From: Hansschlegelia zhihuaiae
GTDB taxonomy: Bacteria; Pseudomonadota; Alphaproteobacteria; Rhizobiales; Methylopilaceae
NCBI RefSeq assembly: GCF_004103825.1
Contig: NZ_RYFI01000006.1
Span: 20,584-61,625 of the forward strand
Length of the DNA stretch: 41,042 nucleotides
Direction of reading: 5' to 3'
Part shown: piece after piece, positions 2,058 through 39,690 of the stretch
Numbering within the stretch: the first letter of the stretch is position 1
How the letters are laid out: each line of letters begins with the position of its first letter
Notes under the pieces: generated by a model
The model's database searches: none
Seen by the model: the letters and a program-made list of their open reading frames with translations, nothing else
Told to the model about the DNA's origin: nothing
Made by a program: the position numbers and the translations under genes

Positions 2058-2660
2058 TCAAAACTCGATTCCCGCCTGCGCCTTCACGCCGTCGCGGAAC
2101 GGGTGCTTCACCTGCGTCATCTCGGTGACGAGGTCGGCGATCTCGATCAGTTCGTCCTTGGCGTTGCGGCCCGTCACCACGACATGGCAGTCGGCCGGCC
2201 GGCTCTTCAGGACTTCAACAACCTCGCCGAGGTCGAGATAGTCGTAGCGCAGCACGATGTTGAGCTCGTCGAGGATGACGAGCTTCACCTCCGGGTCGGC
2301 GATGAACCTCTTCGACATCTCCCACGCCTCGCGCGCCGCCCGCACGTCCCGCTCGCGGTCCTGCGTCTCCCAGGTGAAGCCCTCGCCCATGGCGTGGACC
2401 TCGACCTGGTCGGGGAACTTGCGCAGCAGGTCACGCTCGCCCGATTCCCACGGCCCCTTGATGAACTGCACGACCCCGACATTCATGCCGTGGGCGATCG
2501 CGCGCATCGCCATGCCGAAGGCGGCGGTCGACTTGCCTTTGCCCTTGCCGGTGTGGACGATGAGCAGGCCCTTCTCGACCTGGCGCGCAGCCACGATCTT
2601 GTCCTGATGCGCCTTGCGCGCCTTCATCTTCTCCGCATGGCGGGCGGCGTCTTCGGTCAT
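2058..2660 (-). CDS. cobO: Cob(I)yrinic acid a,c-diamide adenosyltransferase CobO
   Basis: ATP:corrinoid adenosyltransferase of the CobO/BtuR/CobA family, which adds the 5'-deoxyadenosyl ligand to reduced cobalt in the corrin ring. The 200-aa length is normal. The nucleotide-binding loop [10 protein letters not shown] lies at residues 36-45, followed by [14 protein letters not shown], the [15 protein letters not shown] block and [12 protein letters not shown], all characteristic of the family. The N-terminus is Lys/Arg-rich. Its ATG overlaps the cobN stop by 4 bases (ATGA), which indicates translational coupling. It acts after cobalt chelation by CobN, which precedes it in the operon. Confidence 0.97.
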
Positions 2661-5600
2661 TGCACGGTCTCCGTCGCGAGCGCGGCGAGGTCGTCATGCG
2701 CGCTGTTGCGCTTCGGCCTCCAGAGGCCGCGCCGCTCGGCCTCGAGGAAGGCGCGCGCCATCTCGGCGAGCGCTGCGGGATTTGCGGCGGCGACGAAGCC
2801 GCGCGTGTCGCGGTCCATCAGATAGGCGTCGTAGAGCGCGTCGAACTGGTGCGATCCGACGGCGTCGGTGGTCGCGGCGAAGCCCATCAGATTCCGCACC
2901 GTCGCGAGCATCTCGGCCGCGCCCTTATGGCCGTGGCCGCGCATCGCCGCGATCCATTTCGGGTTCGCGGCGCGGGCGCGGACCACGACCGCGATCTCTT
3001 CGGCAAGCGTGCGGACAGATGGCGTCTCGGTCCGCGACGTGTCGAGATGGTAGATCGCAGGCGCGGCGCCAGTGAGAGCCTCTACGGCCGCCGACAGTCC
3101 GCCTGCGAATTCGTGCACGTCGTCGGAATCGAGCAGGTCGAACTCGCGGGCGTCCTGCGTCTGCACCACGGCGTCGACGCCGTCCGCCATCGCTTCCAAC
3201 GCCTCGCGGGCCGGCGCGCCTTCGGTCCCTTGCGCATAGGCGAAGCCGCTCGCGGCGAGATAGGCCTCGGCGAGGTCTTTGCGGGTCTCCCACGCCCCTT
3301 CATTGAGCAGCGGCGCGAGCCCCGTCCCATAGGCGCCGGGCCGCGCGCCGAAGATCGCGTGCGAGGCGCGGCCTCCGTCGCGCTCCTCCCGCATCCGCGC
3401 GGCGATCGGGTTCGAGTCGGCGTCTTCGTCGAGCGCGCCGACGAGCCTGACCGCCTCGTCGATCAGGTCGATCTGGAACGGGAAGGCGTCGCGGAAGAAG
3501 CCCGAGATGCGGAACAGCACGTCCACGCGGGGGCGCCTGAGCTCGGAAAGCGGCAGGACCTCCAGTCCCACGACCCGCGAAGATCCCGCCTCCCATTGCG
3601 GCGCGACGCCGACGAGCGCCAGCGCCTGCGCGACGTCGTCGCCGCCGGTGCGCATGTTGGCCGTGCCCCAGGCGGAGATCGCGAGCCGCCTCGGCCATTC
3701 GCCATTGTCCTGGAAATGGCGGCGGCAGAGCAGGTCGGCCGCGGCGCAGCCGAGCCGCCAGGCGGCTTCCGTGGGCGCGGAACGCGGGTCGAGCGCGAAG
3801 AAGTTGCGGCCCGTCGGCAGCGCGTCGAGCCGCCCCCGCGTCGGCGCGCCAGAGGGACCGGGGGGCACGAAGCGCCCGTCGAGCGCGCGCAGCAGGCCGT
3901 CGATTTCGGCGGCGCCGGAGGCGTCGACGCGCGGCGCGATGACGGTCGCGATTTCGCGGAGGACGGCGGCGCCAGCGGGGAGGGCTAGGCCGCGTCCATC
4001 GTCATGCCCGGGCTTGACCCGACCAACCATCGGCCTGGACCGATCCTTTTCTGCGCTTGGGATGGATCCCCGGGTCAAGCCCGGGGATGACGGTGAAGAG
4101 GGCGCCGCCTCTTCCACTAACCGCAACGCCAGCGCCTCGAGCCGCTCCACCGTGTCGCCCGCGATCCGCCAGAGCTCGTCCGAAACCTCGGCGAGCGCCT
4201 CCGGCCGCGGACCCTCCCAGCGCGCCGAGAACTCAGCGGCGAGGGGGTCGAAGCCGTCGAGCCCCAGATCAGCCGCCAGCGCGCGGAGCAGCGATGCGTC
4301 CCCGGGACTCGGCCCGCGAGGCGAGCGGGCGAGCGCGACCAGCAGCTCGGCGCGCTTGCGGCCCTCCGGCGAGCGGCCGAAGACATGCAGGCCGTTCCGG
4401 ACCTGCAGCTCCTTCACCTCGCACAGAAACGCGTCGAGCTTGGTCAGCGCGTCGTCCGGGTCGTCGGCGATGGAGAAACCGCAGTCGCGGTCGAGGCCGA
4501 GATCGGCGGCGCGGGCGAGGATCTCCTTGGCCAGCGCTTTCGCGCGGCGCGGGTCGAGCCCCTCGGCCTCGGCGTATTCGTCGACCAGCGTCTCGATCTC
4601 GCGCAGCGCCGCGGCTCCCTCGGCCCGCGCGAGCGGCGGCGTCAGGTGATCGACGATGACGGCGGCGCTCCGGCGCTTTGCGGAGGTGCCTTCGCCGGGG
4701 TCGTTGACGATGAAGGGATAGACATGGGGCAGGGGGCCGAGCGCGATCTCGGGGAAGCATTCTAGGGACAACGCCAGCGCCTTGCCGGGCAGCCATTCGA
4801 GATTGCCGTGCTTGCCGACATGGACGATCGCATGCGCCCCGAAACTTTCCCGGAGCCAGCAGTAGAAGGCGAGGTGGCCATGCGGCGGCGGCAGGTCTGG
4901 ATCGTGATGCGCGGCCTTCGGATCGAGGTCGAAGCCGCGGGAGGGCTGCACGCCGAGGACGAGGTTTCCGTAACGGCGGAGCGCGAGGCGGAAGGCCTGC
5001 GCATCGCGGTCGAAGGTCGGGTCGTCCTCAGGCCCGCCCCAGCGGGCGGCGATCTTTTCGCGGGTCCGGGCGGGGAGGGCGGAGAGAAAGCGCCAATAAG
5101 CGGCGAGCGAGAGCTCCGCGCTCGTGTCCCGGCCGCAGCGAAGCGGAGAGCCGGGACCCATCTGCTCGGCCGCTTCCATGTCGGACGGGACGGCGTCATG
5201 CATCTCCGTCGAGCGCGGCGCGTATAGGTCCCGGCTCTGCGCGGCTGCGCCGCTTCGGTCGGGACATGGTGTTGAGCCTTCCAGCGCTGCCGTCATCGCA
5301 GCCACGACCTCGGCGCCGGTCCGGGGGGCGCCGTCGGCCGCGTAGCCCGCATGCTTCAGCGCATCGAGCATCACGGCTGTGCTTTCCGGCGTGTCGAGGC
5401 CGACGCCGTTGGCGAGTCGCGCAGCGCCGGTCGGGTAGTTGGCGAGGATCAGCGCGACGCGGCGCTCCGGCCGAGCCGTTCGGCGCAGCCGCGCCCAGTT
5501 GGCCGCGAGGTCGGCCGCGAAGGCGATCCGGTCCGGGACCGGCTCGAGCGCGACGATCTCGGTCTCGGTCGCCGGATCGAACCGGCCGGCGGACTTGAAC

Positions 5601-6598
5601 GCCACGGCGCGCGACAGCACCCGCCCATCGATCTCGGGCAGAGCCACCGCCATCGCGAGGTCTCGCGCGCCGAGGCCGCGCGGCGAACCTTCCCAGGTCG
5701 CGCGGTCGGAACCCGCGAAGACGAGCTGGAGGACGGGCGCGTCGGCCGAATCGAGCGGCGAGCCCTCCCAGGTGGCGCCGGGCTTCGAAACCGCGAAGGC
5801 GGTCGAATTCAGCACAACGTCCGGCCGAACGGCGGCGAAGGTCTCGCAGACGAAGGCGGCGGCCGCCGGGTCCTTCAGCGAGGTCACATAGATCGGAAGC
5901 GCGCCGAGCCCTCGTGCGGAAAGCGCGTCGACCATCGCCTCGACGGGCGCGACGTCGCCGGCCTGATATTGCGCCCGGTAGAACACGACCGGCGCGACCG
6001 GCGCGCTTTCCGGCCAGCATTCGCGGATGGCGTCGAGCGTCGGCGCCGCCATGCCCGGCCAGAACAGGCCGGCGGGCGGGGTCGGCGCCGGATCGAGCGC
6101 CGGCGCGCCGCCGTCGAGCCAGGCGCGGCAGGCGCGCAGCGCGGCGGCCAGATTCTCTGGACCGCCTTCGACCAGCATCCGCCACAGCGCCTCGGCCTCG
6201 GCGGCCGGCACGGTGGAGCGGGCGATCAGGTCCGGGTCGGCGTTGCCGCAGCCCGGCATCACGGCGAGCTTCACGCCATGCCGGCGAGCGATCCGCGCGC
6301 TCTCCTCGACGCCGTAGGGCCAGTAGGAGGCGCCGCCGAGCAGACGGAGCACCAGCAGGCGCGAGCGCGCCACGGTCTTCTCCAGGAAGAGGTCGACCGA
6401 CATGTTGTGGCGGAGCTTCTGGAGGCTGGCGAGCCGGAGCGAAGGCGCGGCGGCCCCGAGCGCCGCATGGGCGCGTGCGAGGCCTGCGATCTCCGTGTCG
6501 GCCGCGGAGACGATCACGATCTCGGCCGGCGACAGGTCGAGATCGACCGCCTCCGTCCCGTCGCCGATCGGCTGCCCTTGCGCCTTCAGGAGATGCAT
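2657..6598 (-). CDS. cobN: Cobaltochelatase subunit CobN (with two repeat-derived insertions)
   Basis: Large subunit of the aerobic ATP-dependent cobaltochelatase (CobN with CobS and CobT), which inserts cobalt into hydrogenobyrinic acid a,c-diamide. The 1313-aa protein has the CobN/Mg-chelatase H-type fold; recognisable blocks include GVQPSRGFDLDPKAAHHDPD, VHVGKHGNLEWLPGKA and LPTGRNFFALDPR. Two segments look foreign but stay in frame. Residues about 444-491 correspond to the palindromic repeat at 5124-5267, and about 836-866 to the repeat at 4001-4091. Both fall in linker-like regions, outside the recognised motifs. No stop or frameshift is seen, so the gene is probably functional. CobS and CobT are not in the window. 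The start overlaps the end of cobW by 13 bases. Confidence 0.95.
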   Translation of the reverse strand: MHLLKAQGQPIGDGTEAVDLDLSPAEIVIVSAADTEIAGLARAHAALGAAAPSLRLASLQKLRHNMSVDLFLEKTVARSRLLVLRLLGGASYWPYGVEESARIARRHGVKLAVMPGCGNADPDLIARSTVPAAEAEALWRMLVEGGPENLAAALRACRAWLDGGAPALDPAPTPPAGLFWPGMAAPTLDAIRECWPESAPVAPVVFYRAQYQAGDVAPVEAMVDALSARGLGALPIYVTSLKDPAAAAFVCETFAAVRPDVVLNSTAFAVSKPGATWEGSPLDSADAPVLQLVFAGSDRATWEGSPRGLGARDLAMAVALPEIDGRVLSRAVAFKSAGRFDPATETEIVALEPVPDRIAFAADLAANWARLRRTARPERRVALILANYPTGAARLANGVGLDTPESTAVMLDALKHAGYAADGAPRTGAEVVAAMTAALEGSTPCPDRSGAAAQSRDLYAPRSTEMHDAVPSDMEAAEQMGPGSPLRCGRDTSAELSLAAYWRFLSALPARTREKIAARWGGPEDDPTFDRDAQAFRLALRRYGNLVLGVQPSRGFDLDPKAAHHDPDLPPPHGHLAFYCWLRESFGAHAIVHVGKHGNLEWLPGKALALSLECFPEIALGPLPHVYPFIVNDPGEGTSAKRRSAAVIVDHLTPPLARAEGAAALREIETLVDEYAEAEGLDPRRAKALAKEILARAADLGLDRDCGFSIADDPDDALTKLDAFLCEVKELQVRNGLHVFGRSPEGRKRAELLVALARSPRGPSPGDASLLRALAADLGLDGFDPLAAEFSARWEGPRPEALAEVSDELWRIAGDTVERLEALALRLVEEAAPSSPSSPGLTRGSIPSAEKDRSRPMVGRVKPGHDDGRGLALPAGAAVLREIATVIAPRVDASGAAEIDGLLRALDGRFVPPGPSGAPTRGRLDALPTGRNFFALDPRSAPTEAAWRLGCAAADLLCRRHFQDNGEWPRRLAISAWGTANMRTGGDDVAQALALVGVAPQWEAGSSRVVGLEVLPLSELRRPRVDVLFRISGFFRDAFPFQIDLIDEAVRLVGALDEDADSNPIAARMREERDGGRASHAIFGARPGAYGTGLAPLLNEGAWETRKDLAEAYLAASGFAYAQGTEGAPAREALEAMADGVDAVVQTQDAREFDLLDSDDVHEFAGGLSAAVEALTGAAPAIYHLDTSRTETPSVRTLAEEIAVVVRARAANPKWIAAMRGHGHKGAAEMLATVRNLMGFAATTDAVGSHQFDALYDAYLMDRDTRGFVAAANPAALAEMARAFLEAERRGLWRPKRNSAHDDLAALATETVQ
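4001..4091. repeat. Palindromic repeat (family II) inside cobN
   Basis: Two 31-base arms, 4001-4031 and 4061-4091, form an imperfect inverted repeat around a 29-base centre. The outer ends read GTCAT...ATGAC and the arms contain GGGCTTGACCCG. The same arm type recurs at 14697-14772. It is translated within CobN without a stop, giving residues about 836-866 (a PGLTRGSIPS-like peptide and its mirror VKPGHDD). Confidence 0.85.
5124..5267. repeat. Palindromic repeat (family I) inside cobN
   Basis: The left arm (about 5124-5161) begins GTGTCCCGGCC and ends GCCGGGACCC. The right arm (about 5227-5267) begins GGTCCCGGC and ends GGGACATG. The arms are imperfect inverted copies and share the TGTCCCGG...CCGGGACCC core with the repeats at 6624-6742 and 29512-29632. 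The element is about 144 bases (48 codons) and is read in frame in CobN at residues about 444-491. Confidence 0.8.
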
Positions 6599-7803
6599 CG
6601 GTCTCCGCTCAACTCCGCCCTCGATGTCCCGGCCTTGAGCCGGGACCCATCACCGCCGCCTGCGCCGGACGATCGGCGCCTGATCGCGACGCCCGCTTCG
6701 GAACCGTCGAGCCCAATGGGTCCCGGCTCAAGGCCGGGACATGGGCGCGGCGGCTCTCGCGGGCATCCCCGCAGCGCCGCCGCTATGCCGGCGCGGTCGA
6801 GGCCGGTCTCGCCGATCACCACCAAGCGCCCGGAGCGCGTCTCGCCCTCCCTCCACGGACGGTCGAAATAGCTCTCCACCCGCTGGCCGACCGCCTGAAC
6901 GACCAACCGCGCGGACTTGCTCTTCACCGGCGCGAAGCCCTTCAGCCGCAGCACATCGAACGTCGCGAGCGCACTCCGCACGCGCTCGGCCAGCGCCTCG
7001 GCGTCCTCGGCCTCGCCGATTTCGACCACGAAACTCTCGAACTCGTCATGGTCGTGGTCGTCATGGCCTTCGAGCTCGTGATGCGAGGGCCGCGCGTCGA
7101 TCTTGTCCTCGGCTCCGGAGGCGAGGCCGAGCAACACCTCGGCCGGCAGCGCGCCATTGGCGGCCGACACCACCCGGACGCCCTCGCTCGCATGTTCGAG
7201 CACGCCGGTTCGCACGGCCTCGGCTTCCGCCTCGGACAGCAGGTCGGACTTGTGCACCACCAGAAGGTCGGCGGACCGCACCTGGTCTTCGAACAGTTCC
7301 TCGATCGGATCATCATGGTCGAGGTTCGGATCCGCCGCGCGCTGGGCCGCGACCGCCGCCTCGTCATGGGCGAAGCGGCCGTCGCGGACCGCCGGTCCGT
7401 CGATCACGGTGACGACGCCGTCGACGGTCACGCGGGTCGTGATCTCCGGCCAGCGGAACGCCTTGACCAGCGGCTGCGGCAGGGCGAGGCCGGATGTCTC
7501 GATGACGATGTGGTCGACGGCCTCGGGCCGCGAAAGAATCTTCTCCATCGCGGGGATGAAGTCGTCCGCCACGGTGCAGCAGATGCAGCCATTGGCGAGT
7601 TCGACGATGTCGTCCTCCTGACAGGCCTCGCTCGCGCAGGCCTTCAGCACCTCGCCGTCGATGCCGACGTCGCCGAACTCGTTGACGATCAGCGCGATCC
7701 TCCGGCCGCCGGCGTTCTGCAGGAGGTGGCGGATGATCGTGGTCTTGCCGGCGCCGAGGAAGCCGGTCACGACGGTCGCGGGGATCTTGTGGGGGACGGT
7801 CAT
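6586..7803 (-). CDS. cobW: CobW GTPase, cobalamin-associated metallochaperone, with repeat-derived C-terminal tail
   Basis: COG0523 family GTPase tied to cobalt delivery for cobalamin synthesis. The protein has 405 aa: Walker A GFLGAGKTT at residues 14-22, the GCICC metal-binding motif at 72-76, an IETSGLALP block at 101-109, HKSD at 184-187 in the NKxD position, and a His/Asp-rich loop at about 241-253 (HHELEGHDDHDHD). The recognisable C-terminal domain ends near residue 346 (GLDRAGIAAALRG). The last 59 residues are encoded by the palindromic repeat at 6624-6742 plus flanks and are not typical CobW sequence. The ATG overlaps the cobU stop by 4 bases, and the 3' end overlaps the cobN start by 13 bases, probably a result of repeat insertion at the old gene border. 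Confidence 0.94.
   Translation of the reverse strand: MTVPHKIPATVVTGFLGAGKTTIIRHLLQNAGGRRIALIVNEFGDVGIDGEVLKACASEACQEDDIVELANGCICCTVADDFIPAMEKILSRPEAVDHIVIETSGLALPQPLVKAFRWPEITTRVTVDGVVTVIDGPAVRDGRFAHDEAAVAAQRAADPNLDHDDPIEELFEDQVRSADLLVVHKSDLLSEAEAEAVRTGVLEHASEGVRVVSAANGALPAEVLLGLASGAEDKIDARPSHHELEGHDDHDHDEFESFVVEIGEAEDAEALAERVRSALATFDVLRLKGFAPVKSKSARLVVQAVGQRVESYFDRPWREGETRSGRLVVIGETGLDRAGIAAALRGCPREPPRPCPGLEPGPIGLDGSEAGVAIRRRSSGAGGGDGSRLKAGTSRAELSGDRCIS
6624..6742. repeat. Palindromic repeat (family I) forming the cobW 3' end
   Basis: Perfect 27-base inverted arms at 6624-6650 and 6716-6742 (ATGTCCCGGCC...GGGACCCAT), separated by 65 bases. The arms are identical, so this is the best preserved copy in the window. 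It lies in the last 60 codons of cobW, immediately before cobN. Confidence 0.92.
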
Positions 7804-9326: not shown

Positions 9327-9335
9327 CTTTGGGTT

Positions 9336-9529
9336 GCTCGTTCCGGCAGGTCTCCTGGCTCACGGGTCGAAGCGAAGCGCGCCGGCCTTCCCGGATCACG
9401 AAATCCAGTGGCCAACCATCGGCGCGCCGCTCGCCGCTCACAGTTGCGGGGGCAGCTCCGGACTCGGGACGCGCGAGGCCCCTCACCGGATTCCCTTTTG
9501 ATCCCTTGCGGGAGCCGAAGCGAATGAGC
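9336..9529 (-). ncRNA. Cobalamin riboswitch
   Basis: On the minus strand the conserved landmarks occur in order: GGGAATCCGGTGAG, then CTGCCCCCGCAACTGT, the B12-box region GGCCACTGG, CCGGGAAGGCCGGC, and the 3' signature GAGCCAGGAGACCTGCC. A probable P1 helix pairs GCTCATTC (9522-9529) with the 3' strand at 9336-9344. The element lies 42 bases upstream of cbtB and should control the whole cbtB-to-cobQ operon in response to adenosylcobalamin. Confidence 0.96.
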
Positions 9530-9578
9530 GAGGCGTAGCAGACCGGCGCGCGGCCGACAATCGATACGAATGGGCGCG

Positions 9579-26471: not shown

Positions 26472-26683
26472 GCTCCGACCGGCGGGGGGCGCTTGACGCC
26501 GGCCTGGCGCCATCGCGCATGGCTCCTTTCCGCCGCCGCCACGGAGGAGGATCCGGGACGGTCGGCGCAGCGCTCCTCCCCTGCGAAGCGGAGAGGGGGA
26601 CGGCGCAGCGGTGGAGAGGGCGGACCTAGAACGCCGCGGCCGCATGGCTACGAGTTGACGGGCTCGCGTGCAAGGAATTAATT

Positions 26684-26706
26684 CCTAATTATATACGTGA
26701 CATAGC
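26684..26706 (+). repeat. Left terminal inverted repeat of the IS1595 element
   Basis: CCTAATTATATACGTGACATAGC reads as two blocks, CCTAATTAT and TGACATAGC, separated by 5 bases. It matches the right end at 20 of 23 positions. Confidence 0.85.
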
Positions 26707-26744
26707 TGAGCACCTGAGCTATAAGAGGCTCTAGGAGTTAGCCG

Positions 26745-27728
26745 ATGTCCACTTTGACCGACCCAATTTTTCACGACAACGACAAGGCGCGCGAGCACCT
26801 TGAGGCGATCCGCTGGGAGAACGGCCTGTATTGCCCTCATTGCGGCAACGCGGACGAGACCAGCATTCACAAGCTCCAGGGCAAGTCGCACCGACCGGGT
26901 CTGTTCCAGTGCAACGCCTGTCGCCAGCACTTCACGGTGACTGTCGGCACCGTCATGGAGCGTTCGAAGGTTCCGCTCGCGAAGTGGGTTCTCGGCTTTC
27001 ACCTAATGGCCGCTTCGAAGAAGGGTATGTCGGCCCATCAGCTTCACCGCATGCTCGGCGTCACCTACAAGACGGCTTGGTTCATGGCGCACCGCATCCG
27101 CGAGGCCATGAAGGAAGACGTTGCGTCGTCAGGGCCGCTCGGTGGCGAAGGCAAAATCGTCGAGGCGGACGAAACCTACATCGGCAAGCGCGAGACGCCT
27201 GCTAAGCTGTCGCGTGGTCGCATCGCTACGCCGACCAAGAGCGGCAAGGCTGGCGGCGCTCAGAAGCGCGTCGTGATCGGACTCGTCGAGCGCGGTGGGC
27301 GCACCCGCATGGTCCACATCAATCACGCCACAAGGGACACCGTGCGCGAGGTTCTGGTCCGCAACGTCGACCGCGCTTCGGTGCTCCATACCGATGAAAG
27401 CCGCCTTTACACGATCACCGGCAAAGAGTTCAACGGGCACCGCACCGTGAAGCACTCGGCTGGCGAGTACGTCCGCCGCGATGCCGAAGCTATCGTTCAC
27501 TCCAACACGATCGAGAACGTATTCTCTGTGTTCAAGCGCGGCATGGTTGGCGTCTATCAGCACTGCGGCGAGGCTCACCTGCACCGCTACCTCGCCGAGT
27601 TTGATTTCCGGTACAACCGACGCACCGCCCTGAAGATCAGCGACCGCGAGCGCACTGACGACGCCATTAGAGGCGCGTCAGGCAAGCGCCTTACGTACAA
27701 CCAATTTGAAAATGCCGGTCACGCCTAA
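26745..27728 (+). CDS. IS1595-family transposase
   Basis: A 327-aa DDE-type transposase. The N-terminal zinc ribbon has Cys30/Cys33 and Cys56/Cys59 (CPHC ... CNAC), followed by the SKVPLAKWVLGFHLMAASKKGMSA block typical of the family. The catalytic core shows VEADETYIGKRE, LHTDESRLY and the HSNTIENVFSVFKRGMVGVYQHC segment with the last catalytic positions. The ATG at 26745 has AGGAG 10 bases upstream, inside the element. The frame is complete. The ~20-residue Gly/Ser/Lys-rich insert (KLSRGRIATPTKSGKAGG) before the second strand is common in the family. Confidence 0.95.
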   Translation: MSTLTDPIFHDNDKAREHLEAIRWENGLYCPHCGNADETSIHKLQGKSHRPGLFQCNACRQHFTVTVGTVMERSKVPLAKWVLGFHLMAASKKGMSAHQLHRMLGVTYKTAWFMAHRIREAMKEDVASSGPLGGEGKIVEADETYIGKRETPAKLSRGRIATPTKSGKAGGAQKRVVIGLVERGGRTRMVHINHATRDTVREVLVRNVDRASVLHTDESRLYTITGKEFNGHRTVKHSAGEYVRRDAEAIVHSNTIENVFSVFKRGMVGVYQHCGEAHLHRYLAEFDFRYNRRTALKISDRERTDDAIRGASGKRLTYNQFENAGHA

Positions 27729-27769
27729 ACAGAAAGCGAGGGCCGTTGCCTACTGGCGAAAGCGCCACC

Positions 27770-27931
27770 CTAAGAGCCTGATTTAGGTTCCGCTAGCTTC
27801 GACTTTTGCTCTTTCGACTCCCCCGACTCCCGTATAGGCTTCGGCGGGGTTGAAAGAGCGCGTCTAAGAGCGTTGTCTCTGCGTTTTGAAATATCACTAA
27901 GATCGGATGTATTTTTCTCGTTTTTGGTCAT
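27770..27931 (-). CDS. Small charged protein, IS passenger candidate
   Basis: A 53-aa frame from ATG 27931, preceded on its strand by AGGGA about 10 bases upstream. The product is very polar and rich in Lys, Arg, Ser and Glu. It contains KRRDNALRRALSTPPKP, a pattern I associate with small uncharacterised proteins (KRRDEALKRxLxTPPKP type) seen in many alphaproteobacteria; this is from memory, not from a search. The frame is open further upstream to 28057 inside the divergent ORF, so the start rests on the ribosome site. Function unknown. Confidence 0.5.
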   Translation of the reverse strand: MTKNEKNTSDLSDISKRRDNALRRALSTPPKPIRESGESKEQKSKLAEPKSGS

Positions 27932-27935
27932 GGCA

Positions 27936-28493
27936 ATGTTCCCTGATGAACACATTTTCCTTTTGGATTTTGAAGCTATGTCCTTAGTTCTCGATAACCC
28001 TACAGTGGATGGTCTTTTAACCTGCTCAACTCGTTTAAGAAAGCTGTTGATTGACAAGGACCCACTGCTTCATAAGCTTGCCCGCAAACACCAATTTAAA
28101 CCAAAATTTGAGATTATCGGTGCCGTGTCAACCAAAGAACTTGAATCAAGGATGATAGCTGAAGGCGACATCGTCTATTGGTTTCATAAGATCGTTCCGG
28201 AACCTGGATTGCCTTCACGCCTAGTGGGTTTAGATGAATTTCTGTCTGACATGATTTTCAGCCTCCGCGGAACCAGGATAACCGTGCGAGAGCTTATAAC
28301 ATACGTGTCAAACGTTGGAGGAGGTACGCATCAAGGTAAGCCACGAGTTGGAGAACTTGTACATCAAGTTATACATGAAACTGCACGACAGGGAACTTTC
28401 AACGGTCAGCCATACCCTTTAATAAGCATGATCGCCATTACCTCCGTTACGTTGAATGGTGTCCGTCCGTTATACGAGCAGCTAAAATCCTAA
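27936..28493 (+). CDS. Hypothetical protein, IS1595 passenger gene, low GC
   Basis: About 185 aa from ATG 27936; ATG 27930, TTG 27873 and ATG 27978 are other possible starts and none has a strong ribosome site. The base composition is clearly poorer in GC than both the host genome and the transposase gene. The protein looks genuine: DNPTVDGLLTCSTRLRKLLIDKDPLLHKLARKH, later RITVRELITYVSNVGGGTHQGKP. I do not recognise a characterised family. No signal peptide or membrane span is seen. It lies inside the IS ends, so it moves with the element. Its 3' end overlaps the minus-strand ORF 28447-28722 by 47 bases. Confidence 0.65.
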   Translation: MFPDEHIFLLDFEAMSLVLDNPTVDGLLTCSTRLRKLLIDKDPLLHKLARKHQFKPKFEIIGAVSTKELESRMIAEGDIVYWFHKIVPEPGLPSRLVGLDEFLSDMIFSLRGTRITVRELITYVSNVGGGTHQGKPRVGELVHQVIHETARQGTFNGQPYPLISMIAITSVTLNGVRPLYEQLKS

Positions 28494-28722
28494 GATCGCC
28501 TAGCGGCGTCCATACGGCGTCTGTGCGCCAGTCAGGCGGCAACATCATCGCCCAATCCCCAGCGTAGTCATAGCCGTCTTCAATCTGCCAAAGCGCTTCA
28601 AATCGGCCAATCCGCCCAATGCACCTGCGAACGCTCGGCTTCAGATCGTCTAGCCTGCGAGGGGAATACTCGGCGACGACAAGCGTCCCACGATGCAGAT
28701 CAACCTCTCCGTTCATCGTCAT
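28447..28722 (-). CDS. Hypothetical protein, second IS passenger candidate
   Basis: A 91-aa frame (start ATG 28722 or 28716). The product contains RGTLVVAEYSPRRLDDLKPSVRRCIGRIGRFEALWQIEDG, then PPDWRTDAVWTPLGDLRIL, a soluble mixed alpha/beta composition with several Trp. It resembles small proteins of unknown function rather than a shadow frame, because the plus strand opposite it is closed in most of this interval. It is convergent with the plus-strand passenger gene and overlaps its end by 47 bases. Confidence 0.5.
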   Translation of the reverse strand: MTMNGEVDLHRGTLVVAEYSPRRLDDLKPSVRRCIGRIGRFEALWQIEDGYDYAGDWAMMLPPDWRTDAVWTPLGDLRILAARITDGHHST

Positions 28723-28787
28723 CTAGCAATCCTCCAAAGTTTCCAATGTCTCCCGGAGCCTTAAGAAGGAAGGCTATCACGATTTTG

Positions 28788-28810
28788 GCTATGTCAGCTA
28801 CATAATTAGG
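28788..28810 (-). repeat. Right terminal inverted repeat of the IS1595 element
   Basis: Read on the minus strand, CCTAATTATGTAGCTGACATAGC, matching the left end except at three positions in the centre (10, 13 and 14). Confidence 0.85.
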
Positions 28811-29295
28811 AATTAATTCCTTGACATCCGCTTTTATCCATGCTCCCATTTCGTCACCCTTTCCCGTTTCGGAAGGCGTGTCCGGACCGGCCGGCCATGC
28901 GGGGGAGGGGCGGCGCCTGCGCCCGCGAGCCCCGGAGCCCGCGGTCCCGGGACGCCGGCCGCTGGGGCGGCAGGTCTGAGGCGAGGCGCGAACGCCCCGT
29001 CTTCGGGTCTTGTCGCTCTGAACGCCGCCCGTCCCGCATTATGACGGGGCCGCGCCATCGAGGCGCCTTAAGGGCGGGCGTCGTCTCCCGACCGGGAGCG
29101 ACGTCCGCGCCGGAGCAGCGGCTGAGCGGCCGGTGAAAAGACGCCGCGCGCGGGGCGTCGGGCGACCGGATCGCCGAACAGACTGCGGCATGTGGTGGCC
29201 CGGCGCCCTGCGCCTTCCACTGATGTGAGTGCGTGACCATCGCGGAGCTGAGGCGACGGCGGCTGATCCGGGCCGGCGGACGAGGAGGCGCGCCT

Positions 29296-29511: not shown

Positions 29512-29632
29512 ATGTCCCGGCCTGGGCCGGGACCCATCCTGCGGGACCGGCGCCGGCGTGGAGAGCGCTGTGCGACGAGGGTCTTTCGGCGCAGGACCGA
29601 GTCGAATGGGTCCGGGCCCAGGGCCGGGACAT
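29512..29632. repeat. Palindromic repeat (family I) upstream of lepB
   Basis: Arms at 29512-29537 (ATGTCCCGGCC...GGGACCCAT) and 29606-29632 (ATGGGTCC...GGGACAT), near-perfect inverted copies with a 68-base centre. Same family as the copies in cobW (6624-6742) and cobN (5124-5267). It lies 128 bases before the lepB start. Confidence 0.88.
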
Positions 29633-35831: not shown

Positions 35832-37256
35832 ATGCCGATCGAAGTCCTCATGCCGGCGCTTTCGCCGACCATGGAGGCGGGCAAGCTCGCCAAATGGCTC
35901 AAGAAGGAGGGCGACAGCGTCACGTCGGGCGACGTGATCGCCGAGATCGAGACCGACAAGGCGACCATGGAAGTCGAGGCGGTCGACGAGGGCACGCTCG
36001 GAAAGATCCTGGTCGAAGAGGGCGCTGACGACGTCAAGGTCAACACGCCGATCGCGCTCATCCTGGGCGACGGCGAGGACAAGTCCGCGCTGAGCAACGG
36101 CGCCGGAGAAAAGCCCGGCAAGGAGCCCGCGGCCAAGCCCGCCACGCCCGAAAAGGCGGCCAAGGACGACGTCGGCAAGCAGTCGCCGGCCGAGGCCAAG
36201 GCGACCGGCTCCGCCGCCGCCAATCCGCCCCAGCCGAAGGCGCTGCCGGAGCCGGACGTGCCGGAAGGCACGGAGATGGTGTCGCAGACGGTGCGCGAGG
36301 CGCTGCGCGACGCGATGGCCGAGGAGATGCGCGCCGACGACCGGGTGTTCCTGATGGGCGAGGAGGTCGCCGAATATCAGGGCGCCTATAAGGTGAGCCA
36401 GGGCCTGCTCGACGAGTTCGGCAAAGAGCGGGTGGTCGACACGCCGATCACCGAGCACGGGTTCGCAGGTGTGGGAGTAGGGGCTGCCCTTGCGGGTTTG
36501 AAACCGATCGTCGAGTTCATGACGTTCAATTTCGCCATGCAGGCGATCGACCAGATCATCAATTCGGCCGCCAAGACGCTCTACATGTCCGGCGGCCAGA
36601 TGGGCTGTTCGATCGTGTTCCGCGGGGCGAACGGCGCGGCGGCGCGCGTCGCGGCGCAGCACAGCCAGGACTACGCCTCCTGGTATTCGAACGTGCCGGG
36701 CCTGACCGTTATCGCGCCCTACACCGCGGCCGACGCCAAGGGGCTGCTGAAATCCGCGATCCGCGACGAGAACACGGTGATCTTCCTCGAGAACGAGATC
36801 CTCTACGGACAGTCGTTCCCGGTGCCGAAGCTCGACGACTACGTGGTTCCGATCGGCAAGGCCAAGATCGCGCGGCCGGGCGAGCATGTCACGATCGTCG
36901 CCTGGTCGATCGGCATGACCTACGCGCTCAAGGCCGCAGAGAAGCTCGCCGAGGAGGGCATTGAGGCCGAGGTCATCGACCTGCGCACGATCCGCCCGAT
37001 GGACACCGAGACGATCGTCGAGTCAGTCAAGAAGACCGGGCGGATCGTCACGGTCGAGGAGGGCTGGGCGCAGTCCGGCGTCGGCGCCGAGATCGCGGCG
37101 CGCGTCATGGAGCACGCCTTCGACTGGCTCGACGCGCCGGTGACGCGCGTCTCGGGCAAGGACGTGCCGATGCCCTACGCGGCCAATCTCGAGAAGCTCG
37201 CCCTGCCGAGCGTCGCCGAGGTGGTCGAGGCGGCCAAGGCGGTGTGCTACCGGTGA
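35832..37256 (+). CDS. pdhB: Pyruvate dehydrogenase E1 component, beta subunit, with N-terminal lipoyl domain
   Basis: Beta subunit of E1. 474 aa, longer than the E1-beta core because residues 1-80 form a lipoyl domain ([21 protein letters not shown] ... [17 protein letters not shown], lipoyl-lysine in DKA). An Ala/Pro/Lys linker (about 85-140) follows, then the E1-beta catalytic domain ([71 protein letters not shown]) and the transketolase C-terminal domain. The lipoyl-E1-beta fusion is the usual alphaproteobacterial form. It overlaps the next gene's GTG start by 4 bases. Confidence 0.97.
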
Positions 37257-38328: not shown

Positions 38329-39690
38329 ATGCCCACCAACATCCTGATGCCCGCGCTGTCGCCCACCATGGAGAAGGGCAACCTCGCAAAGTGGCTCGTG
38401 AAGGAAGGCGACGCGGTGAAGTCCGGCGACGTCATCGCAGAGATCGAGACCGACAAGGCCACGATGGAGGTCGAGGCAGTCGACGAGGGGACGGTCGGCA
38501 AGATCGTGGTGGCGGAAGGCACGTCCGACGTTCCCGTCAACGAGCTGATCGCGATCCTGCTGGAGGAGGGCGAGGACAAGTCCGCGCTCGACGCCGCGCC
38601 AAAGCCGTCGCCGAAGACCGCGCCTGAGCCGGCCAAGTCCGAAGCGCCGAAGACCGAGGCGTCCGCGCCGCGGCCGAGCGAGGCCAGGCACGACGAGGCG
38701 CCGAAATCGGAGCCCGCGCCGAAGCCCGCCGCGAACGGCCATGACAAGGGATCGCGCGTCTTTGCCTCGCCGCTCGCCCGCCGCCTCGCCAAGGAGGCCG
38801 GCATCGAAATCGGCGCCATCCAGGGCTCCGGTCCGCATGGCCGGGTGATCAAGGCCGACGTCGAGCAGGCAAAGGCCTCGGGCGGCGCCAAGCCCGCGCC
38901 GGCCGCGAAGGCTCCCGATGGAGCGCCTGCCGCCAAGGCGCCGCCTGCGCCGGCGGACGAGGCGACCAAGAAGCTGTTCCCCGAAGGCTCGTTCGAGGAA
39001 GTCCCGCATGACGGCATGCGCAAGACGATCGCGCGGCGCCTCACCGAGGCCCGCCAGACCGTCCCGCAGTTCTACGTCACGGTCGACTGCGAGATCGACG
39101 ACCTGCTGAAGCTCCGCGGAGAGATCAACGCCTCGGCGCCTGAGCAGGACGGCAAGCCTGCCTGGAAGGTCTCGGTCAACGACATGGTGATCAAGGCGCT
39201 CGGCGTCGCGCTCGCCCAGGTGCCGGACGCCAACGTGACCTGGACCGAGGGCGCGATGCTCCGCCACAAGCATGCGGACGTCGGCGTCGCGGTCGCGCTG
39301 CCCGGCAACGGCCTGATCACGCCGATCATAAGGGCCGTCGAGACCAAGACGCTGTCGGCGATCGCGAAGGAGATGAAGGACTTCGCCGCCCGAGCCAAGG
39401 ACCGGAAGCTGAAGCCCGAGGAGTATCAGGGCGGCACTACGGCGGTCTCGAACCTCGGCATGTTCGGCGTCAAGGACTTCACGGCGGTGATCAACCCGCC
39501 GCATTCGACGATCCTCGCGGTCGGCGGCGGCGAGAAGCGCGCGGTGGTGAAGGGCGGCGAGATCAAGATCGCGACCGTGATGAGCCTCACGCTCTCCTGC
39601 GACCACCGCGCCGTCGACGGCGCGCTCGGCGCCACGCTGATTTCGGTCGTGAAGCGTTTGATCGAGAAACCGATGGGGATGCTTGTATAA
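38329..39690 (+). CDS. pdhC: Pyruvate dehydrogenase E2, dihydrolipoamide acetyltransferase
   Basis: Core enzyme of the complex; moves the acetyl group from lipoyl to CoA. The start at 38329 gives 453 aa. Residues 1-78 form the lipoyl domain ([17 protein letters not shown] with the lipoylated Lys). An Ala/Pro/Lys linker (about 85-140) leads to the peripheral subunit-binding domain (FASPLARRLAKEAGIEIGAIQGSGPHGRV). A second linker (about 185-215) leads to the catalytic domain with the active-site SCDHRAVDGA near residue 425. The first 75 residues are close to those of PdhB. The E3 gene lpd, which usually follows, is not seen before the window end. Confidence 0.97.
   Translation: MPTNILMPALSPTMEKGNLAKWLVKEGDAVKSGDVIAEIETDKATMEVEAVDEGTVGKIVVAEGTSDVPVNELIAILLEEGEDKSALDAAPKPSPKTAPEPAKSEAPKTEASAPRPSEARHDEAPKSEPAPKPAANGHDKGSRVFASPLARRLAKEAGIEIGAIQGSGPHGRVIKADVEQAKASGGAKPAPAAKAPDGAPAAKAPPAPADEATKKLFPEGSFEEVPHDGMRKTIARRLTEARQTVPQFYVTVDCEIDDLLKLRGEINASAPEQDGKPAWKVSVNDMVIKALGVALAQVPDANVTWTEGAMLRHKHADVGVAVALPGNGLITPIIRAVETKTLSAIAKEMKDFAARAKDRKLKPEEYQGGTTAVSNLGMFGVKDFTAVINPPHSTILAVGGGEKRAVVKGGEIKIATVMSLTLSCDHRAVDGALGATLISVVKRLIEKPMGMLV

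Follow-up and report, generated by a model that had tools for sequence, protein, structure and literature searches.

CobN, the large subunit of cobaltochelatase, contains in Hansschlegelia zhihuaiae a translated palindromic repeat. This repeat is very probably a non-autonomous REP-like element that is tolerated in flexible linkers of CobN, with selection on the enzyme keeping those copies that are in frame and free of stop codons. It was found in a stretch of 41,042 nucleotides (the window) on contig C56 of a 61-contig draft genome, designated G000. The following features of the window are referred to below; the repeats are given without a strand.

2657–6598, minus strand: cobN, large subunit of cobaltochelatase, 1313 aa, match to PF02514; host of two translated repeats
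5125–5266: palindromic dimer of family I in cobN, 142 nt, CobN residues 444–491 (approximately), linker 1
5111–5280: possible full extent of the family I element in cobN, with deduced boundaries that include 15-nt outer termini
3997–4095: CGTC-type REP dimer in cobN, in frame, approximately residues 835–868, linker 2
6586–7803, minus strand: cobW, 405 aa; the CobW_C domain match ends at residue 347
6624–6742: dimer of family I at the cobW-cobN junction, 3' end of cobW
29513–29631: dimer of family I upstream of the lepB signal-peptidase domain

The cobN product matches PF02514 over residues 139–1298 (1156 bits), and cobN matches were found in all 13 genus genomes, some of them in pieces. A sequence-only reading had proposed an inverted repeat within this frame. 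The repeat is real; it occupies 5125–5266 and corresponds to the proposed residues 444–491. It is read in frame and without a stop, adds the expected number of approximately 48 residues, and lies between two conserved blocks. Its architecture is that of a dimer, with an arm TGTCCCGG-loop-CCGGGACCCA, a variable middle of 67 nt and an inverted arm; the cobN copy is a variant with long-loop arms. The calculated RNA fold of 5125–5266 has an energy of -81.4 kcal/mol, compared to a mean of -65.8 kcal/mol for shuffled sequences (z -4.0; 0 of 200 shuffles were as good). Because conservation in family I extends 15 nt past each arm, the cobN element may span approximately 5111–5280; its right outer end is degenerate. 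The inserted segment would be one copy of a dispersed palindromic element, in which two REP-like hairpins face each other with a variable middle between them.

The arm pattern of family I has 98 exact matches in G000 (46 forward, 52 reverse), and the reversed control pattern has none. The earlier view that the segment is dispersed, and no domain of CobN, was supported. The pattern is present in 13 of 41 genomes (G000 and 40 relatives), these 13 belonging to two genera only, and is absent from three of the 12 other genus members. A survey of 61 stretches comprising 736,339 bases, mostly selected around family I arms, yielded 77 elements, of which 64 are dimers; head-to-head dimers predominate. 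Measured from arm to arm, most dimers (49 of 63) are 110–119 nt long. Their arms hardly vary, and their middles do; for comparisons of middles, 50 of the 64 dimers were used, those with unclear arm borders being dropped. In 113 outer flanks, sequence conservation reaches 15 nt past the arms and no further, so that the element is a discrete unit ending there. The possibility that the two outer 15-nt stretches of a copy correct each other was rejected, as the two termini of the same copy are identical at a fraction of 0.52 and shuffled pairs at 0.53. In the genome of G007, clusters of TGTCCCGG arms were observed at C1:1269110-1269911 and 3303111-3303852, the first with a spacing of 191–197 nt, which suggests that the element was multiplied locally in tandem.

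The 64 dimers were assigned to placement classes by means of a codon model trained from cobN and cobW. Coding stretches of the same strand without a common open frame lie on both sides of 26 dimers; 15 are convergent, one is divergent, 17 have coding sequence on one side, two on neither side, and three are in frame. Most dimers are therefore located beside or between coding stretches, which resembles the placement of REPs. The same-strand class could hide genes broken by a copy. The three in-frame dimers lie upstream of a SurE domain, in a frame of 55 codons, and in cobN. Accordingly, the cobN copy is internal to its gene, and it is the only convincing internal copy among the 64 dimers. The copies that had been reported in cobW and upstream of lepB both exist; the former is located at the 3' end of cobW and not inside it. 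Family I was not built to be readable: 188 of 378 dimer frames are open (0.497), compared to a mean of 0.455 and a maximum of 0.505 for shuffled sequences, and this idea was rejected. Of 63 dimers, 21 have a length that is a multiple of three. Together with about half of the frames being open, perhaps one sixth of the copies would cross genes harmlessly.

A general scan for hairpin dimers in the G000 stretches yielded 74 dimers, six of them in frame. Both cobN repeats were missed, and the scan therefore undercounts. The in-frame dimers lie upstream of an ABC-permease domain (L118), upstream of SurE (L090), in frames of 55 and 41 codons (L102 and L107), and in a frame of 196 aa that has no Pfam match (L076); the sixth, L082, has arms outside these repeat families. 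In G012, a further genus member, five of 48 dimers are in frame, dimers closer than 320 nt to the end of a stretch having been dropped. Three of the five are internal, namely in a hydantoinase gene (L234, CCCCTCCCC type), in CobN linker 1, and in a sulphur-transport gene (PF04143; L253, CCTCTCC type). One lies before an apparent start codon, as judged by eye (L265), and one is a 40-codon frame (L268). CobN is therefore not unique in hosting such dimers.

Two other structures were observed in the window. Positions 26671–28823 are likely an IS1595-type insertion with terminal inverted repeats of 36 nt (92% complementary), an ISXO2-like transposase at 26745–27728 and a second frame at 27873–28493 that has no Pfam match; it lies in a stretch with a G+C content down to 0.45. 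Furthermore, positions 35832–36091 and 38329–38588 form a direct repeat of 79% identity, which covers the biotin/lipoyl domains of a transketolase-type gene and of a 2-oxoacid dehydrogenase acyltransferase gene.

A second translated repeat of cobN, at 3997–4095, was absent from the earlier reading and belongs to another family. Its right arm reads, when reversed, CGTC-ATCCCCGGG-CTTGA-CCCGGGGAT-CCA; the left arm is partly degenerate. It has the CGTC tag, an AT-starting stem of 9 bp, a loop of 5 nt and the CCA tail of CGTC REPs. A related arm pattern has 37 matches in the genome.

The closest named CobN records are from Methylopila, Hansschlegelia and Chenggangzhangella, with a partial match from Chelatococcus sambhunathii. 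Eight named records and eight genus genomes agree fully in sequence at one or both linkers; the type strain Hansschlegelia plantiphila, which has inserts, agrees with G005 at both. Linker 1, located between ...MTAAL and LSLAAY..., comprises 11–16 residues in the empty orthologues of G001, G002, G003 and G009, so that the alignment has the predicted gap at the insert in four of the 12 readable genus genomes. In the other eight, linker 1 is filled by repeats from at least three families: family I in G000 and G007, a hairpin remnant of family I in G006, CGTC-type dimers in G010, G012, G004 and G011, and a CTCTCCCC-type dimer in G005. Linker 1 of G008 is cut by a contig end, and this genome is not among the 12. 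Linker 2 is filled in 10 of the 12 genomes and free of repeats in G001 and G002. CGTC-type dimers are found there in G000, G003, G004, G005, G007, G010, G011 and G012, with an additional CTCTCCC-type piece in G007, and another family is found in G006 and G009. The truncated contig of G008 contains part of a repeat in linker 2. An arm exchange in place in G005 and G011 was considered and dropped, as a dimer with two arm types exists elsewhere in G000 (C9:4423).

Among the genus CobN genes, 11 have an intact frame, and all of their inserts are in frame, which fits selection on the enzyme; in G007, the frame breaks elsewhere in cobN. For 19 of 23 inserts from nine genus members, none of 60 control stretches taken from the same gene has a perfect inverted repeat as long as that of the insert. 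The remaining four do not exceed the controls, which counts against our preferred reading. This test was based on insert coordinates set by hand, left out the inserts of G007 and G008, and included the C-terminal tails that CobN has in six genus members, four of which beat the controls. The family of an insert often matches repeats that are common in its own genome. For example, family I occupies linker 1 in the two genomes richest in family I (a result reached by one of 66 pairs), and linker 1 has the TGCCCCGG type in G004, G011 and G012 (reached by four of 220 triples); the types in these rank tests were chosen after the inserts had been seen, and G008 was left out. The CCTCCGG type found at linker 1 of G010 is scarce in that genome, with six arms, and nine of 13 genomes have more. 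Inserts therefore do not always mirror the genome.

Repeats of changing families also occupy the cobW-cobN junction in 11 of 12 readable genomes, as read by eye, G002 being the exception. Orthologues of cobW have a stop codon immediately ahead of the repeat; the G000 gene lacks it, and its frame runs through the repeat, resulting in a tail of 59 residues. Upstream of cobW and cobN, a cobalamin riboswitch (RF00174, 116.9 bits) is located on the same, minus strand at 9328–9534.

An order-wide sample of 91 genomes, three of which are genus members including G000, gave a CobN match in 77. Of the CobN loci, 42 were read and 38 of them aligned automatically; L305, L308, L310 and L311 were not parsed, and L305 was then read by eye and the other three left out. 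In the 29 best non-genus loci, the linkers comprise 10–20 and 14–26 residues, and there is no insert of at least 12 residues. Twelve further loci were picked mainly for gaps in the match tables, and their insert rate is therefore not a frequency. Nine of these 12 genes contain altogether 12 inserts, 10 of which are recognisable palindromic repeats. The inserts are located in linker 1 (L303, L304, L305, L307), in linker 2 (L301, L302, L303), near residue 190 (L306, L312), near residue 424 (L306, L309) and near residue 758 (L306). Perfect inverted repeats of 14–26 bp are present in L301, linker 2 of L303, L304, L306 near 424, and L312, as measured against controls drawn from whole genes with the inserts included. 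In linker 1 of L303, in L305, in L306 near 190, in L307 and in L309, the longest perfect repeats have only 6–9 bp, and these five were recognised visually by known arm motifs. L302 and L306 near 758 show no clear palindrome, which again counts against the preferred reading. Repeat inserts in CobN thus occur in other families of the order too.

In an AlphaFold model of CobN residues 1–1190 (mean pLDDT 77.3), both inserts (447–491 and 837–869) have values below 50 and lie between ordered elements; they are thus predicted to be disordered. Nine other short stretches have likewise a pLDDT below 50, and such values are expected for any segment that has no homologues. Alignments with solved CobN chains are interrupted near the insert sites. 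The insertion site would code for a short flexible linker, and for this reason an in-frame and stop-free copy would leave the enzyme undamaged, so that selection would keep only such copies. As CobN would offer few tolerant places of this kind, the same sites would come to hold different repeat families in different species. The enzyme is presumably made and functional with the insert in it, and the linker presumably selectively neutral.

The differing families at the linkers probably result from insertion and not from replacement in place. A possible but doubtful alternative is that each linker received one ancestral insertion, whose repeat was later rewritten in place, either through gene conversion by genomic copies or by new repeats landing in the old palindrome; occupancy would then be old and only the family would change. 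This would account for the hairpin remnant of G006, which has the right junction (CCGGGACACGAGCGCGG) of G000 though it belongs to another clade (support 100), for the long-loop right arm common to G000 and G007, and for the linker 2 middles of the pairs G000/G010 and G005/G011 (z 4.0). However, the linker 1 middles of G000 and G007 have a z of 0.4, which is below the paralogue mean of 3.0. Moreover, G006 and G009 contain an unrelated family at linker 2 where the sister G011 has the CGTC type, and long inserts are missing from the linkers of G001, G002 and the 29 best-matching non-genus loci. Middles at the same site are clearly homologous in one pair only (G004/G011, z 7.2), a point against the preferred reading.

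Recognition of these CobN stretches at the DNA level, by the element or by its mobiliser, is unlikely; recurrence would then reflect target choice and not survival. In the 11 intact genus genes, all interior inserts of at least 6 aa but one (G011) do lie in the two linkers. Yet unrelated repeat families use the same sites, the position of the insert within the linker varies, and the non-genus inserts near residues 190, 424 and 758 lie outside both. Furthermore, no target duplication was convincing, and the flanks showed no preference once the ends of the element itself were passed. The tests for target duplication and for mutual correction of the termini used 55 of the 64 dimers. The best of 800 target-duplication tests was a 2-nt match, full in eight of 55 copies (z 4.5, 20 shuffles), and longer matches did not stand out. 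A function of the inserts, for example in tuning CobN interactions or mRNA folding, is very improbable: the RNA structure is strong and the inserts are in frame in many species, but sequence and family vary between species, four readable genus members lack the linker 1 insert, and the inserts are predicted to be disordered. An artefact of assembly or annotation can practically be dismissed, since comparable inserts stand in an open frame in other assemblies, even if G000 is a draft.

CGTC REPs were described by Di Nocera et al. in 2013 (PMC3733652), mainly in alphaproteobacteria. They have a stem of 8–9 bp, a loop of 5 nt and a CCA tail, are mostly head-to-head dimers and lie mainly between co-directional or convergent genes, some being intragenic; they have no associated transposase. 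The cobN repeat at 3997–4095 fits this class. Family I shares with it a loop of 4–5 nt, with CTTGA within CCTTGAG in 76 of 109 arms (five arms have a much longer loop, CCGCAGCGAAGCG..), the CCA tail, whose second C and A are conserved at 0.91 and 0.96 over 113 ends with the first C fixed by the search pattern, and the predominance of dimers. In contrast, family I has no unpaired CGTC, TGTC or CCTC tag; in its outer flank YCAT precedes GTCCCGG, whose GTC is able to pair with GAC. The family I stem GTCCCGGC/GCCGGGAC has 8 bp and does not start with AT, as is the criterion for CGTC REPs, and the conserved 15-nt outer termini are a further difference.

The same article reports intragenic REPs from free-living bacteria, in which dimers or groups code for 20–30 residues, and suggests that a REP landing in a flexible linker or loop may be neutral. 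The presence of REPs within genes is thus already known from free-living bacteria, and the earlier impression that they would be unfamiliar there does not hold. Nor is there any sign that the insert is a new functional segment, given its predicted disorder and dimer frames that are barely more open than shuffled ones. The sequence-only reading was therefore partly supported, namely on dispersal, in-frame reading and absence from some orthologues, and was not supported as stated on novelty. RPE-4 and RPE-6 of Rickettsia were assigned to the CGTC REPs (PMC3733652). Like the cobN repeats, RPEs are palindromic inserts read in frame inside unrelated genes; they belong to another genus and are likened here by description and not by sequence. 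Whereas cobN is the only convincing in-gene case of family I found in G000, intragenic CGTC repeats are reported to be most numerous in R. conorii (PMC3733652). Known REP-related work also includes RepRanger (PMC12306157).

The PF01797 profile of Y1 (RAYT) transposases had no match in G000 (97.5% complete) and one partial match over the cut-off among the 13 genus genomes (G007); mobilisation by a RAYT in G000 was therefore rejected. A classic MITE of a DDE transposon is likewise unsupported, as no convincing target duplication was found. REPINs consist of two inverted REPs around a variable middle and are dispersed and non-autonomous; family I, with its inverted REP-like arms, resembles them in all these respects. 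Enterobacterial RU elements, which are reported to keep open reading frames within annotated genes (PMC2759123), and Coxiella MITEs (PMC5896051) are small mobile repeats like family I. They come from other bacterial groups, and the likeness is one of description and not of sequence.

What is added here is an arm family related to but distinct from CGTC REPs, and the recurrence of repeats at fixed CobN linkers in the genus and beyond. A recurrent filling of the same CobN linkers was not found in the open PMC literature, taken exclusive of the supplementary table of intragenic REPs of PMC3733652. We see an even chance that CobN of the Hyphomicrobiales is a standing acceptor of palindromes. Several unrelated families would then have entered both linkers, the sites near 190 and 424 and the C-terminus independently in many species, most large length differences would be translated mobile palindromes, and the mobiliser would possibly prefer such sites. 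PMC3733652 lists in-gene REPs gene by gene, and the single same-site case is that of recB, where differing REPs lie at about the same site in two Xanthomonas species. CobN displays the process across a genus and beyond, with empty linkers, intact dimers of various families, a single-hairpin remnant and read-through at a gene end. This series is natural material for testing the neutrality and frequency of insertion. It also bears on what moves REPs that have no known transposase, a question that PMC3733652 did not settle.
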